From: an uncultured Methanobrevibacter sp.
GTDB lineage: Archaea; Methanobacteriota; Methanobacteria; Methanobacteriales; Methanobacteriaceae
NCBI RefSeq assembly: GCF_947169325.1
Contig: NZ_CAMVPN010000005.1
Location: 1-64,000 of the forward strand
Direction of reading: 5' to 3'
Length of the DNA stretch: 64,000 nt
Notes under the pieces: generated by a model
The model's input: only the letters and a program-made list of their open reading frames with translations
The model's database searches: none
What the model was told of the DNA's origin: nothing
Shown: positions 28,131 through 58,087 of the stretch, piece after piece
Position numbering within the stretch: the first letter of the stretch is position 1
Layout of the letters: every line of letters starts with the position of its first letter
Made by a program: the position numbers and the translations under genes

Positions 28131-29631
28131 AAATAAAACTTTCGGAGTTATTGGCGTTTGTGGAGCAAACGGTAATTTAATAGCTAGAATTCTTAAGCAA
28201 AGAGGATACAATGTCATTGGAACAGATTTGTCCTTTAAAAAGGACTGCAGATTTGCAAAGGCTCTCGGCGGCTATGACATTGATGTCTATTATGGACAGA
28301 CTCCGGACAAGTTTTTTGAAAGGGCAGATTATATTATCCCGCCTGCCAGCATGTCAAAGGATTCCGAAGTTTTAAAGAATTGCGGAAAGCCTATTCTGGA
28401 ATTATATGACATCATTGAAATGATTAAGCCTGAAAAGCCGGTATTTGGAATAACCGGTACAAACGGTAAGACAACCACAACAACTTTACTTAAAAAAATA
28501 GCTTATGATAATGGAATCAAACCTTGTGAACATGACCTTGAAGGCATGCAGGGCAATGCGGAATTCATACCGATTCTTCAATCCAGATTGGATGGGGATG
28601 TCGGAATTTTGGAAGTAGGAACCTTCGGAGTTCCGGGCACTGTCGGAAGGATAGTAAAGAACACCGACATGTCCTCTGGGCTGATTACAAACATCACTCC
28701 TGATCATTTAAATGACCTTGGAAGCTTTATGGATTATGCCAATGTCAAAGGGGAATTCATCTCTGAATTGGGACTTGGACAGCTAATTGTCAATGGTAAT
28801 GACCCTACAATCATCGGGCTTTTAAGGGAACTTGACTTTAAAGGAGAAGTCATCACATTCGGTGTTGATGAGCTTCCTGATTCAATAGGAATGAAGGAAT
28901 GTGTCTGCGGAGCTGAAATCGCAGTTAAGGAAATTATTTCCGGTTGCGGTTATTACTTCTGCAAATGCGGAATAACAACTCCTCAGGTGGACTATGTTGC
29001 AACAAACATCGATTTGCCTAACAGAACATTCGATTTGCACACTCCTACTGAAAAGTTAACCGTTAAAATGGGTGTTGACGGACTTCACAACGTTTATAAT
29101 CTGACAGGCGTAATCATTGCGGCTCACGTGTTCCTTGATTTGCCTTATGATAAGATTTTACCTACAATTGCCAGTTTCACAGGTGTAAGCGGAAGGATGG
29201 AAGAGGTAGGCAAAGTAAAGGGCAAGGACATATTTGTTGATTATGCACACAATCCTGCCGGTGTCGAAACTGTGTTAAAGGAATTCAAAAAATTATTCGG
29301 AGAGTTTACAACTGTCATTACCGTTTCATCAGAATCAGGTTATGTCGGTGACATGGACATCTTCAACAGCGTTTTGAAATTCTCCAAATTCATCGTTCCT
29401 GCTTCAGTAGCTTCTCAAAAAATAGCTTTGGAAAAATTGAGGGCCAATCCTAAACTGAACGACAGGATATTTTTGAATCATGTTGATGATTTTGAAAAGA
29501 CAGGAACTCTTGGAGCCTCTGAAGAAGAAGTTCGTGACGGTTTAAGAAAGGCATTGAACCTAGATTGTGAAATGGTAATAGCTATCGGTGAAGCTGCTAC
29601 CAAATTCAAATCTATAGTTTTTGAATTATAA
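28120..29631 (+). CDS. Mur ligase family protein with Cys4 insert
   Basis: GITGTNGKTTTTTLLKKIAY...ECVCGAEI...GCGYYFCKCG...DYAHNPAGVE; likely start ATG within 28105-28125. Confidence 0.8.
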   Translation, partial: SMNKNKTFGVIGVCGANGNLIARILKQRGYNVIGTDLSFKKDCRFAKALGGYDIDVYYGQTPDKFFERADYIIPPASMSKDSEVLKNCGKPILELYDIIEMIKPEKPVFGITGTNGKTTTTTLLKKIAYDNGIKPCEHDLEGMQGNAEFIPILQSRLDGDVGILEVGTFGVPGTVGRIVKNTDMSSGLITNITPDHLNDLGSFMDYANVKGEFISELGLGQLIVNGNDPTIIGLLRELDFKGEVITFGVDELPDSIGMKECVCGAEIAVKEIISGCGYYFCKCGITTPQVDYVATNIDLPNRTFDLHTPTEKLTVKMGVDGLHNVYNLTGVIIAAHVFLDLPYDKILPTIASFTGVSGRMEEVGKVKGKDIFVDYAHNPAGVETVLKEFKKLFGEFTTVITVSSESGYVGDMDIFNSVLKFSKFIVPASVASQKIALEKLRANPKLNDRIFLNHVDDFEKTGTLGASEEEVRDGLRKALNLDCEMVIAIGEAATKFKSIVFEL

Positions 29632-30027
29632 TTCGTAGGTTTTTGGTGGCTCTCCGGAAAAGTCAGCGATTGTTGCTTTACCGTTGATTGTAAATACTTC
29701 AAACACTGGATTTTCACCGGTTTCGTATAATGCTTTTACAAGTTCGTTTGAATCGATCACTTTCTGTTTTAATTCTATGCTGTCGGTAAATTCGACTTCA
29801 CCAGCAATTCTTAACCATTGGAATTCCGGAGTTGCAGTTACGATTTCACAGTTTGGATTTGCATCAAGTTCTTTGTACATCGGTTTGTTGTTTGCGGTAC
29901 AGAAGTATGGTTTTCCACCCTCTTCGAAGTAGAACAGGATTGGTCTTACTTTTGCGTTTCCGTCAAGTCCGCTGGTTGCTAAGTATATTAAAGAGTTTTC
30001 TTTTAAAAAATTTATTACATCGTTTAT
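29626..30027 (-). CDS. Pyridoxamine 5'-phosphate oxidase-like flavoprotein; proposed ATA start
   Basis: Frame of ORF 29626-29880 extends upstream without stops to ATA 30027: (M)NDVINFLKENSLIYLATSGLDGNAKVRPILFYFEEGGKPYFCTANNKPMYKELD...; AGGAG 9 nt upstream. Confidence 0.75.
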   Translation of the reverse strand: MNDVINFLKENSLIYLATSGLDGNAKVRPILFYFEEGGKPYFCTANNKPMYKELDANPNCEIVTATPEFQWLRIAGEVEFTDSIELKQKVIDSNELVKALYETGENPVFEVFTINGKATIADFSGEPPKTYEL

Positions 30028-30088
30028 TTTTTACATCTCCTAATTGTTTGTTGTTTATAGTTTAATTAAAGGTATATAAACCTTTTTT

Positions 30089-30123
30089 GTAACTTTCAGG
30101 TAACGCAGTAACCTCTTGGTAAC
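30089..30123. promoter_or_regulatory. Two tandem 16-bp dyads (putative HxlR operator)
   Basis: GTAACTTTCAGGTAAC-GCA-GTAACCTCTTGGTAAC, directly upstream of minus-strand TATA-like TTTATATA (30080-30073). Confidence 0.7.
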
Positions 30124-49269: not shown

Positions 49270-50076
49270 TTATAATATAGTTTTTAAAGGAATTTCAGGA
49301 ACTTTGCTTTTGTGTTCGCTCCTGATGACTTTTGTAATAATCATATCAACATCATCTACTGAAATATTTAGCTTGTCTGCTATTTCAGTGTTTTTCATGT
49401 CTTTATCGGCATAGAGATAAAGAATTTGATCAAGCAAATCATAGCCCATTCCTATTTCAGCCTCGTCGGTCTGGCCTTTCCATAATCCTGCACGGGGAGG
49501 TTTTGTAACAATTTCCTCAGGAAGGCCCATATATTCGCCTAGCTTGAAAACTTCGCTTTTGTACAAATCTCCGATAGGCTCCATATCGCATGCGCCATCT
49601 CCATGCTTTGTGAAATAGCCAATCAGGATTTCACTTTTATTTCCGGTTCCGCTGACCAGGTAATTTTTATGATTTGCAAAATAATAAATGATTGACATTC
49701 TGATTCTGGCCTTGAGGTTTCCAATGGCCAAATCGTTTTCTTCAAGTTGTGTCTTTAATAAAAATTCATTTAAAATGCCGTCGATTGCTATTTGCCTGTA
49801 ATCGATTCCAAGCTTTTTCGCTATTTCGGCTCCATGAACTGTATCTTCAGCTGGTGTTGTACTGGATGGCAGGACAATTCCAAACACGTTTTCGCTGCCA
49901 ACGGCTTCACATGCAAGATAAGCTGTCAATGTGGAATCGATTCCACCGCTTAATCCGACAACGATTCCGTTGGTTTTGGATTCGCTGACTTTGGATTTTA
50001 TAAAATCAACAATATCCGTTTTTGTCTTTTCTAGGTCTATGTCTGGTATTTCACTAATATTTTCACCAACCTTCAA
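49270..50076 (-). CDS. nadE: NAD+ synthase (NH3-dependent)
   Basis: [23 protein letters not shown]...[22 protein letters not shown]. Confidence 0.96.
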
Positions 50077-50125
50077 ATCATTTATACATAAACTAATATG
50101 TCATTATTAATTTATATATTAATTG

Positions 50126-55295: not shown

Positions 55296-55931
55296 CTAAT
55301 ATATGACCATAATGCACATATAGGTAAATTCGCTTGTGGCAATGTCATTCAATGTGGCCTCGACAATTCTTTCATCAGGATAGCTGAGGCGTTCACATAC
55401 GACAACTTTACGTGTCGGCTCAACACCATTGTCAAGCAAAAACTGCGCCATGTCCTTCACCTTTCTTGAAGGAAGCGCAATGGTGGTCTTTCCATTGTTT
55501 ATCACCGGCAGAATCTCTTCAATGTTTTCCCGACCATGGAATGTCATTACATTGGCATTGTCCCATTGTATGTGGCATCTGGCGGCCGCAAGCTGAAGCG
55601 AACTGATTCCTGGAATGACTTCAATGCTTTCCTTTGGAAAACCGATTTCACCGGATAATCTCAAAACGGTATTCAAAACTCCTGAAAAGCCCGGATCTCC
55701 TGTTGATAATATTGACACCGTATTTCCGTCATAAGCCAGCTGGACTCCTTTTTTCAATGTGTCGACAAGTTCCTTGACGTTGAATGCAATTGTATTTTGA
55801 ACGTCATCAAACAGTTCGATTGCGCGTGTGCTTCCGACGGTGTAGTCACTGGCCTTAACGGTATCAACTGCCTTTTTGGTTAAGTATTCGCTTGAACCTG
55901 GTCCAATTCCAATAATATAAATTTTTCCACA
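55296..55931 (-). CDS. cbiE: Cobalt-precorrin-7 (C5)-methyltransferase CbiE-like
   Basis: MCGKIYIIGIGPGSSEYLTKKAVDTVKASDYTVG...ILSTGDPGFSGVL...VIPGISSLQLAAAR. Confidence 0.87.
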   Translation of the reverse strand, partial: CGKIYIIGIGPGSSEYLTKKAVDTVKASDYTVGSTRAIELFDDVQNTIAFNVKELVDTLKKGVQLAYDGNTVSILSTGDPGFSGVLNTVLRLSGEIGFPKESIEVIPGISSLQLAAARCHIQWDNANVMTFHGRENIEEILPVINNGKTTIALPSRKVKDMAQFLLDNGVEPTRKVVVCERLSYPDERIVEATLNDIATSEFTYMCIMVIY

Positions 55932-55935
55932 CATT

Positions 55936-56319
55936 TTAACCATCAATTTCCAATCTTTCTTTGAAAGTCTCTTTCAATTCCTCACGGGTCTCATCCGAAT
56001 AGCTGTTGTCGTTTTCATCGTGCAATGTAAACATTGCCAGTTCGTAAACGATTCTGTTCATGGATTTGCCGTATTCGGTCAGGTAATATTCTGTTGTAAC
56101 CGGTGTGGTGTTCACGACGACCTTTTCAATCAGCCCGTTTTCTTCCAGTTCCTTAAGGCAGTTTGACAATACCTTATTGCTTAATTTTGGCTTGTCCTCC
56201 TTGAATTCCTTGAAATGCTTCTTTCCGAAAAACATGTCACGGATAATTTGGATGCTCCATTTCTTGTTAATTAGGTTTAAGGTTTTATCGACAGGACAGA
56301 CTGTTTTTTCGAAGTTCAT
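55936..56319 (-). CDS. HxlR-family winged-helix regulator with N-terminal Cys
   Basis: MNFEKTVCPVDKTLNLINKKWSIQIIRDMFFGKKHFKEFKEDKPKLSNKVLSNCLKELEENGLI. Confidence 0.92.
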   Translation of the reverse strand: MNFEKTVCPVDKTLNLINKKWSIQIIRDMFFGKKHFKEFKEDKPKLSNKVLSNCLKELEENGLIEKVVVNTTPVTTEYYLTEYGKSMNRIVYELAMFTLHDENDNSYSDETREELKETFKERLEIDG

Positions 56320-56356
56320 AATAATACTTTGTTTAAATATTATATATCTTTTTTCA

Positions 56357-56391
56357 GTTACTTTCAGGTAACCCGGTTGCTTTTAGGTTAC
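56357..56391. promoter_or_regulatory. Two tandem 16-bp dyads (putative HxlR operator) between divergent TATA boxes
   Basis: GTTACTTTCAGGTAAC-CCG-GTTGCTTTTAGGTTAC; flanked by minus TATA-like sequence (56347-56337) and plus TATA-like ATTTAAATAA (56399-56408). Confidence 0.75.
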
Positions 56392-56450
56392 AAAAATCAT
56401 TTAAATAACCAAAATAAATTATTATTAATCGAATTTAAGGGGGATGAAAT

Positions 56451-57236
56451 ATGAATACAACAGAACAGTTGGATTTTTTAATAGACTATTTGCTTGACGA
56501 GAGAAATGATTTCACAGACATTCCACATGACCTTCAAAGCAAAAAGGGTTTGTTTAGGGCATTGATGAATATAAGAATGCCTGGTGAAGTGTCTGATGAA
56601 TTTCTAAAGATTCAGGATGACTATTTGACCGCTGAAACATTGAATAAGACATTGACATCTCCAAACGATATTGAGGAGGTTAAAGGCAGAATTGCACTTT
56701 GGCAGGGCGACATTACCACATTGAAAGTCGATGCCATCGTCAATGCGGCCAATTCAAAACTGCTAGGATGCTTCATACCTATGCACAACTGCATCGATAA
56801 TGTCATACATTCCTCTGCAGGCGTTCAGCTGAGGTTGGCCTGCGATGAAATAATGAAAGCCCAGGGAAGGGACGAGGCAGTCGGACGCGCTAAAATCACT
56901 CCTGCTTATAACCTTCCTTCAAAGCATGTGATTCACACTGTCGGACCTGCAATTCCACAGGGTTCAAAACCTTCACACACAGATTGCGAAGCGCTTGCAA
57001 GCTGTTATAAGGCATGTATGGAAATTGCCGATGAAAATGAACTTGAGTCATTGGCATTTTGCTGCATTTCAACAGGAGTTTTCAATTTCCCGAAGGGTTT
57101 AGCGGCACAGATTGCCATTGAAACCGTTGAGGAGTATTTGAATTCAAATGATTCCTGTTTGAAATGCGTGATTTTTGATGTATTTGATGACGGCGACTAT
57201 CTGATTTATAAAAATTTGTTATGGGGTGATGAATAA
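56451..57236 (+). CDS. Zinc-type macrodomain protein (protein-ADP-ribose hydrolase class)
   Basis: [53 protein letters not shown]; GCFxPxHxCIDNxIH signature; SRP-independent, soluble. Confidence 0.9.
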
Positions 57237-58087
57237 TGGACCGTTTCGTTCAAAGATTGGATAATGCTTTTGAAGCTATTGAAAATGCTGATTATATTCT
57301 TATCGGTGCGGGTGCCGGTTTTTCTGCAGCTGCAGGTCTTGAATATTCGGGCAAGCGTTTTGATGATAATTTCCAGGATTTCATTGAAAAGTATGGGGTA
57401 CAGGACATGTACTCAGCAACATTCTATCCGTATCAAACACAGGAGGAAAAATGGGCTCATTGGGCACGTCATGTCTATGTGAACAGGTATTCGGTTGGAA
57501 AAACCAAATTATATGAACAATTGCTGGAACTGGTTAAGAATAAGGATTATTTTGTCCTTACAACAAATGTTGAGCATCAGTTTTGGATAAACGGTTTTGA
57601 AGATGAGCGAATCTTCGCAACACAGGGTGACTATGGGCTCATGCAGTGCGAAAAGGGATGTCACGATAAACTGTATTCAAATGAGGATCTGGTTTTTGAA
57701 GCGCTTGAAAAAACCGAAGACTGCAGGATTCCGTCTGAACTGGTTCCGGTATGTCCAGTCTGTGGAGGCAATATGGAAATCAATGTAAGAAAGGACAGTT
57801 TCTTTGTTGAAGATGAAAAATGGCATCAGATGTCTGAAAGGTATTATAAGTTTTTAAATTCAATCGATGAGGATAAGAATTTAGTGTTTTTGGAATTGGG
57901 AGTTGGATTCAACACTCCAACAATAATCAGATATCCTTTTGAACAGATGACATACAATAATCCCAACACTACACTGATAAGATTGAATAGAGATTTTCCA
58001 CAGGCAATTCCGGAAAACAAGGATAGGACAATAAGCTTTGATGAGGAGATTTCTGAAATATTTGATTACTGGTTAAAAAGAGTTTAG
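57236..58087 (+). CDS. SirTM-class sirtuin-like NAD-dependent enzyme
   Basis: ILIGAGAGFSAAAGLEYSG...VLTTNVEHQFWINGF...IFATQGDYG...CEKGC...CPVCGG; TAATG overlap with the macrodomain gene. Confidence 0.9.
   Translation: MDRFVQRLDNAFEAIENADYILIGAGAGFSAAAGLEYSGKRFDDNFQDFIEKYGVQDMYSATFYPYQTQEEKWAHWARHVYVNRYSVGKTKLYEQLLELVKNKDYFVLTTNVEHQFWINGFEDERIFATQGDYGLMQCEKGCHDKLYSNEDLVFEALEKTEDCRIPSELVPVCPVCGGNMEINVRKDSFFVEDEKWHQMSERYYKFLNSIDEDKNLVFLELGVGFNTPTIIRYPFEQMTYNNPNTTLIRLNRDFPQAIPENKDRTISFDEEISEIFDYWLKRV

Follow-up and report, generated by a model that had tools for sequence, protein, structure and literature searches.

The analyzed window, a stretch of 64,000 nucleotides from an uncultured Methanobrevibacter sp., carries a twin operator of two 16-bp dyads at two promoters, one located between hxlR and the genes for an ADP-ribosylation writer/eraser pair and the other in front of a distant flavoprotein gene, and these genes are predicted to form one stress regulon (Table 1). 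The sites are strongly conserved, restricted to these two kinds of promoters, and positioned at a fixed distance of 8 nt from the TATA box, and the regulator co-occurs with its targets. The protein binding to the twin dyads would be the HxlR-family regulator encoded next to them, which, judged from the sequence comparisons, very likely controls both targets. A first-pass annotation had proposed such a regulon. It had observed the operator correctly, and the regulon appears supported and extended by the data described below.

Table 1. Positions of the genes and predicted promoter elements of the putative HxlR regulon in the window
Feature	Position	Strand	Basis or remark
PPOX-fold (NimA/NimC-like) flavoprotein gene	29626..30027	-	PF01243; 2ig6
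PPOX promoter TATA box TTTATATA	30073..30080	-	8 nt from operator
PPOX-promoter proximal operator dyad, minus-strand GTTACCTGAAAGTTAC	30089..30104	-	
PPOX-promoter distal operator dyad, minus-strand GTTACCAAGAGGTTAC	30108..30123	-	
cbiE (cobalt-precorrin-7 C5-methyltransferase), directly behind hxlR	55296..55934	-	NF004459, 347.7 bits vs 298
hxlR, HxlR-family winged-helix regulator, 127 aa, Cys8 (CPVD) and Cys54	55936..56319	-	PF01638
hxlR promoter TATA-like box, minus-strand GATATATAATATT	56340..56347	-	
Distal operator dyad GTTACTTTCAGGTAAC, hxlR side	56357..56372	+	conserved in 37/39 orthologous intergenic regions
Proximal operator dyad GTTGCTTTTAGGTTAC, macro TATA side	56376..56391	+	sequence
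Macro-SirTM operon TATA box TTTAAATA	56400..56407	+	8 nt from operator; A-rich BRE-like AAAAATCA in between
Zn-dependent macrodomain ADP-ribosyl hydrolase (Zn-Macro)	56451..57236	+	NF003163, 353.9 vs 272
SirTM (class M sirtuin) protein ADP-ribosyltransferase	57236..58087	+	5a3a SirTM, E 1e-56, sequence-level match only

The arrays that had been reported at 56357-56391 and 30089-30123 were both present letter for letter, and the window contained no other such sites. When every position was scored out of 20 for four GTWAC half-sites at the offsets 0, 11, 19, and 30, a score of at least 16 was reached at two positions only, 30089 (20/20) and 56357 (19/20), compared to a chance expectation of 7e-5 per 64 kb for a score of at least 19 at the base composition of the window. 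A position weight matrix built from the four 16-mers gave 17.7 to 20.7 for the 16-mers themselves and 10.9 for the next-best site in the window, which is a circular test, albeit with a wide gap. The dyad described previously as GTTAC-N6-GTAAC is real but better written as GTWAC-N6-GTWAC because GTTAC and GTAAC are mutual reverse complements and both are found in either half.

The distance between the array and a TATA-like box had been given as 7 to 9 bp. The TATA box is indeed nearby, but exactly 8 nt separate the proximal GTTAC from the TTTAWATA motif in the macro promoter (56392-56399) as well as in the PPOX promoter (30081-30088). The same distance of 8 nt between the last GTTAC and TTTA[AT]A was found in 37 of the 38 macro promoters and in all 19 PPOX promoters measured, with the PPOX promoter of locus L123 left out of this count due to its variant TATA box. 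Spacers and flanks differ between the macro and PPOX promoters while the 8-nt geometry is the same, and the operator never overlaps the TATA box of these targets. The distance between the operator and the TATA-like box of hxlR varies between species from 0 to 20 nt and is 0 to 3 nt in many of them, so that the operator would cover the BRE of hxlR there.

Conservation was surveyed in 67 Methanobrevibacter genomes, and the loci of 30 close hxlR orthologs plus 20 additional loci were inspected. The named relatives whose HxlR is 72 to 94% identical belong to Methanobrevibacter from the rumen and gut. The ortholog set comprised 39 loci in which hxlR (at least 70% identity) is divergent from macro-SirTM, and the twin site occurs in 37 of these intergenic regions, a number to be read in light of the relatedness of the species, which makes neither genome nor locus counts independent. 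The consensus is GTTACTTTTTAGTAAC-CTG-GTTTCCTTAAAGTTAC, then AAAAATCATTTAAATA. Both the length and the letters of the surrounding intergenic sequence are largely variable between species, so that the twin reads as a real phylogenetic footprint. The remaining two loci (L070 and L076) possess the TATA-proximal dyad alone; this dyad is likewise retained at L153 and L155, and all four loci lack either the distal dyad or an adjacent hxlR. A gene for the PPOX protein was present in 23 of the 67 genomes at 25 places, 20 of which carry the twin with 19 or 20 of 20 matches, mostly some 60 bp ahead of the start codon, and the other five a single or imperfect dyad. Since several macro loci also have one dyad only, pairing of the dyads is not essential everywhere.

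The motif is not widespread at unrelated promoters. In a genus-wide search for the twin with up to 1 mismatch, 37 genomes gave matches, all of them at hxlR/macro or PPOX promoters, and each of these genomes harbors an HxlR of the macro/PPOX clade (p = 1e-10). None of the 21 genomes without this clade contained a twin with up to 1 mismatch or this PPOX gene. Two genomes possess macro but not the HxlR clade, G001 and G051, and in G051 the contig ends just upstream. Two recurring matches with 2 mismatches, starting with TTAGCAATyCTG or GTAACAGTATTATTACC, are near-invariant across genomes at other places and were taken as unrelated conserved, probably coding sequence. The former, in full TTAGCAATyCTGTAACCTGGTTTTTCAAAAGTAAC, is nearly unchanged in G002, G007, G010, G013, G025, G045, and G058, where it presumably represents conserved coding sequence.

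The regulator matched the PF01638 winged-helix domain with 80.3 bits (cutoff 20.8), and its nearest relatives with a solved structure are HypR/YybR and YodB. The N-terminal Cys8 in its CPVD motif is present in 40 of 40 orthologs and aligns with the CPV motif of HypR, the cysteine of which is the redox-active residue there (PMC6943732), so that a redox role of Cys8 is predicted. The second conserved residue, Cys54, is not equivalent to Cys49 of HypR; a counterpart of the latter is absent, as the alignment puts KPKL opposite ICPS. A dyad operator is located by sequence in the promoter region of hxlR itself. In the orthologous loci examined, cbiE begins on the same strand about 1 to 7 nt past the stop codon of hxlR. 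Both genes are probably cotranscribed, and the operator would thus probably also govern this cobamide synthesis gene. In G001 and G026, hxlR is missing at this place, and macro directly faces an apparent cbiE gene across a single dyad.

Both products of the divergent operon contain the motifs of their class. Zn-Macro scored above the NCBIfam cutoff for protein-ADP-ribose hydrolase (NF003163) and possesses VNAAN and the Cx4HxC zinc loop (GCFIPMHNC) that defines Zn-macrodomains (PMC11490716), with 8rsi, MorMacro of M. oralis, as best PDB match. SirTM contains QG instead of HG (TQGDYG), which defines class M sirtuins (PMC4518038). An internal TAG in some macro genes was dismissed as an apparent readthrough of the terminal stop codon where the alignment ends. 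GcvH-L and LplA2 are absent from the operon, and no PF01597 match for the GcvH family was obtained in the genome (2.61 Mb, 145 contigs, 93% complete), so GcvH was rejected as a candidate substrate of ADP-ribosylation. This genome therefore seems to lack the substrate known from the extended operon of bacteria, which is in line with the inactivity of the Methanobrevibacter MorMacro on the bacterial substrate GcvH-L (PMC11490716).

The distant target had been annotated as a pyridoxamine-oxidase-like gene. A PNPOx-like split-barrel fold agreed with the match to PF01243 (38.4 versus 28.1 bits) and with the predicted structure (pLDDT 86; TM score of 0.87 to 2ig6 at 34% identity), and 2ig6 was also the closest solved sequence (E 2e-16). 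The name F420-dependent reductase (TIGR03618) was discarded at 28.8 bits versus a cutoff of 79.05.

Control of the macrodomain-sirtuin operon and the PPOX gene by this HxlR, as originally proposed, is supported not only by the conservation and restriction of the sites but also by rearranged adjacency and co-occurrence, all of them features of the sequence. Concerning the wiring by REARRANGEMENT, the HxlR ortholog of G012 adjoins PPOX with one common twin, and macro-SirTM is located on another contig with a twin of its own. PPOX directly follows SirTM in G036 and G015, with a separate twin, and adjoins an HxlR gene of the same clade in G007 and G066, with a twin site, and in G030, with an imperfect one. 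The macro-SirTM operon begins with hxlR in G003 (contig C5), G008, and G032, where PPOX is divergent with a single dyad in between. By locus, PPOX-hxlR with one common twin is found at L069 and PPOX behind SirTM with a separate twin at L162 and L163, and at L150 macro has no adjacent hxlR but retained the twin. Since PPOX lies beside hxlR or behind macro-SirTM in other genomes, these independent rearrangements support the proposed wiring. All 23 PPOX-bearing genomes contained the HxlR clade, compared to 23 of the 44 genomes without PPOX (Fisher p = 1.8e-5). The macro-linked and PPOX-linked proteins grouped together in a tree of 75 HxlRs and apart from the ACGX-linked paralogs, with moderate fork support (85/74) for this short protein. 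HxlR and PPOX were also listed together for 9 of 10 “Ca. M. intestini” but 0 of 12 M. smithii genomes (PMC11366006). At L151 6164-6979 (G012:C16) lies a gene for another SirTM-like protein, a divergent one (36 to 37% identity). Its neighborhood also contains two distantly related HxlR paralogs and an additional copy of PPOX, which has a twin operator.

A looser genus-wide search for one dyad, 8 nt, and a TATA box also matched promoters divergent from paralogous hxlR genes, including G000:C87 in the genome of the window itself, the product of which shares 52 to 53% identity and which has a similar single dyad at the same 8-nt distance. By these comparisons, GTWAC-N6-GTWAC appears to serve as the code for a broader HxlR clade that includes Methanosphaera, with the tandem form as the mark of the macro/PPOX regulon. 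Cross-talk is possible, as the half-site in the single dyads of the paralogs is the same. In several genomes, such paralogous hxlR genes with single dyads face genes for Cys-rich repeat peptides, which contain ACGSD or SCCIDTT repeats (L083 1-9000, L236, L241, and L249; L196 and L197 in Methanosphaera). Several ACGX-type loci also encode a radical SAM enzyme, an MDR oxidoreductase, and a PPOX-ferredoxin protein, and the radical SAM enzyme of L083 matched TIGR04340 (rSAM_ACGX) far above the cutoff. The paralogous HxlR and its single dyad are candidates for the regulator and operator of the ACGX peptide system.

The start codons of the target genes point to a possible second level of control. 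Start positions were aligned across loci, since an earlier homology screen for missing NTG codons was too noisy. In 47 rows for Zn-macro (L037 to L076, L134 to L136, L150, and L153 to L155), 27 starts were non-AUG, 14 ATA, 12 ATT, and 1 ATC, and 18 were ATG. The ATT row L047 has an ATG one codon upstream and L058 reaches an ATG by a small shift, which left 26 non-AUG starts. A GGAGG-type Shine-Dalgarno sequence precedes them at the usual distance. SirTM starts at the same loci with ATG (40), GTG (3), or ATA (1). Of 35 hxlR rows, 30 begin with ATG and one with ATT, and the others reflect offsets in the alignment. For PPOX, ATG was found in 23 of the 25 orthologs and ATA in two, G019 (L123) and the copy in the window (30025-30027, minus strand, behind AGGAG). 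A Shine-Dalgarno screen of 359 open reading frames flagged 13, about half of them convincing, so the genome-wide rate of non-AUG starts is low and the macro gene exceptional. Non-AUG initiation may possibly be specific to the eraser gene. No description of non-AUG macro starts was found in the literature searched, and gene callers restricted to ATG, GTG, and TTG would truncate those macro genes that start with ATA, ATT, or ATC. Another candidate for a non-AUG start is an open reading frame at 49273-50100 on the minus strand of the window, the best start of which is an ATT behind GGTGA, as in G060 and G010. It is a tentative and rather doubtful idea that control operates at two levels, with a redox-sensing HxlR that coinduces the pair and the flavoprotein and adjusts its own abundance along with cbiE, and with an AUA, AUU, or AUC start on the eraser gene alone that throttles translation of Zn-macro relative to SirTM. 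If true, a modification system would have its set-point fixed at translation, and AUA, AUU, and AUC would be standing archaeal start codons.

The twin dyads are likely the operator of the HxlR in the window, with the targets, the sign of control, and the sensing as modelled here. Judged from the family and the anatomy of the site, two HxlR dimers would bind, one per 16-bp dyad and nearly on the same face of the helix due to the 19-bp period, at the bidirectional region between hxlR-cbiE and Zn-macro-SirTM and in trans at the NimA-like PPOX gene. Thiol or electrophile stress may be sensed via the invariant Cys8, as in YodB, HypR, and CatR. At the macro-SirTM and PPOX promoters, HxlR would act from a site that borders the upstream side of the BRE, most likely by recruitment of TBP/TFB, since this is the typical binding position of archaeal activators, EarA and Ptr2 among them (PMC5512572); this suggests activation of the targets, while the proximity of the TATA box of hxlR to the operator suggests that HxlR represses its own gene. 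Activation rather than repression of the targets is slightly favored. A repressor that blocks the BRE is nearly as likely: HxlR may be a classical repressor of all three genes, with dimers that cover the BRE and block TFB until oxidation of Cys8 releases them, a reading that keeps a substantial, if smaller, share of the probability. Precedents for it are YodB and CatR, two repressors that lose their activity when thiols are modified (PMC6943732). The operator directly borders the BRE at macro and PPOX and comes close to the TATA box at hxlR, and the 8-nt geometry would also allow bound HxlR to block TFB at the BRE. Activation agrees better with the lack of overlap with the target TATA boxes and with the invariant 8-nt gap at two unrelated promoters, the typical position of an archaeal activator. 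Moreover, HypR is activated by thiol modification, and HxlR of B. subtilis is called a positive regulator in a title cited in PMC6943732.

Occupation of the PPOX operators, and perhaps of those of macro, by another HxlR paralog such as G000:C87 has to be considered because the promoter of this paralog carries GTAACCAAATGGTTAC-N8-TTTATATA, the same half-sites at the same spacing. This is improbable, however, since the twin arrangement is confined to genomes with the macro/PPOX HxlR clade, PPOX adjoins an hxlR of just this clade in several species, and 0 of the 21 clade-less genomes contain this PPOX or the twin. Alternatively, the repeats may represent a general promoter element or the binding site of another factor located beside hxlR by chance. 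A fixed TATA spacing would indeed be expected of a core promoter element, but the confinement of the twin to HxlR-linked promoters throughout the genus and the presence of a dyad beside nearly all same-clade HxlR paralogs examined, Methanosphaera included, leave very little room for this explanation. The preferred interpretation is control by the HxlR of the window.

For the SirTM/Zn-Macro system, a structural study from 2024 stated that its physiological role and its targets outside the extended operon are unknown (PMC11490716), and HxlR is not mentioned in the papers searched on this pair (PMC11490716 and PMC4518038). In the literature searched for HxlR in archaea or methanogens, nothing was found on this system besides the gene-content table mentioned above (PMC11366006). 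The predicted regulon may provide a handle on the role of the pair, comprising a candidate thiol-sensing regulator, a coregulated flavoprotein, and exactly predicted operators. It would be a fully specified predicted operator/promoter architecture for an archaeal HxlR in a gut genus, and it offers a reason for the joint difference in HxlR and PPOX between M. smithii and “Ca. M. intestini.”

With the MarR/DUF24 regulators of Bacillus (YodB, HypR/YybR, CatR, and HxlR), the regulator shares the Pfam family and an N-terminal redox cysteine, which is a predicted one here. The Bacillus regulons include small oxidoreductases, a nitroreductase and an azoreductase (PMC6943732), and the predicted target here is a PPOX flavoprotein. 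Different from Bacillus are the archaeal TBP/TFB promoter, SirTM/Zn-macro as a target, the twin 16-bp dyads, and the lack of a counterpart to Cys49 of HypR. The position of the operator resembles that of EarA and Ptr2, which use multiple sites immediately upstream of BRE/TATA (PMC5512572), but these are different regulators, and the analogy is positional only. The PPOX protein is closest in sequence and fold to 2ig6, the NimA/NimC-like protein CA_C2569 of Clostridium acetobutylicum, but its gene is located in a predicted HxlR regulon together with ADP-ribosylation genes. The writer/eraser pair itself, with its QG and Cx4HxC motifs, is the same as in the extended SirTM/Zn-Macro operons of S. 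aureus and S. pyogenes, the minimal one of M. oralis, and the fungal Mfs1. In contrast to the extended operons, the locus contains neither GcvH-L nor LplA, and the genome has no GcvH-family match. The predicted coregulation with the PPOX flavoprotein recalls the SirTM locus of bacteria with its OYE/LLM flavin oxidoreductases (PMC4518038), a parallel that is consistent with a redox role.
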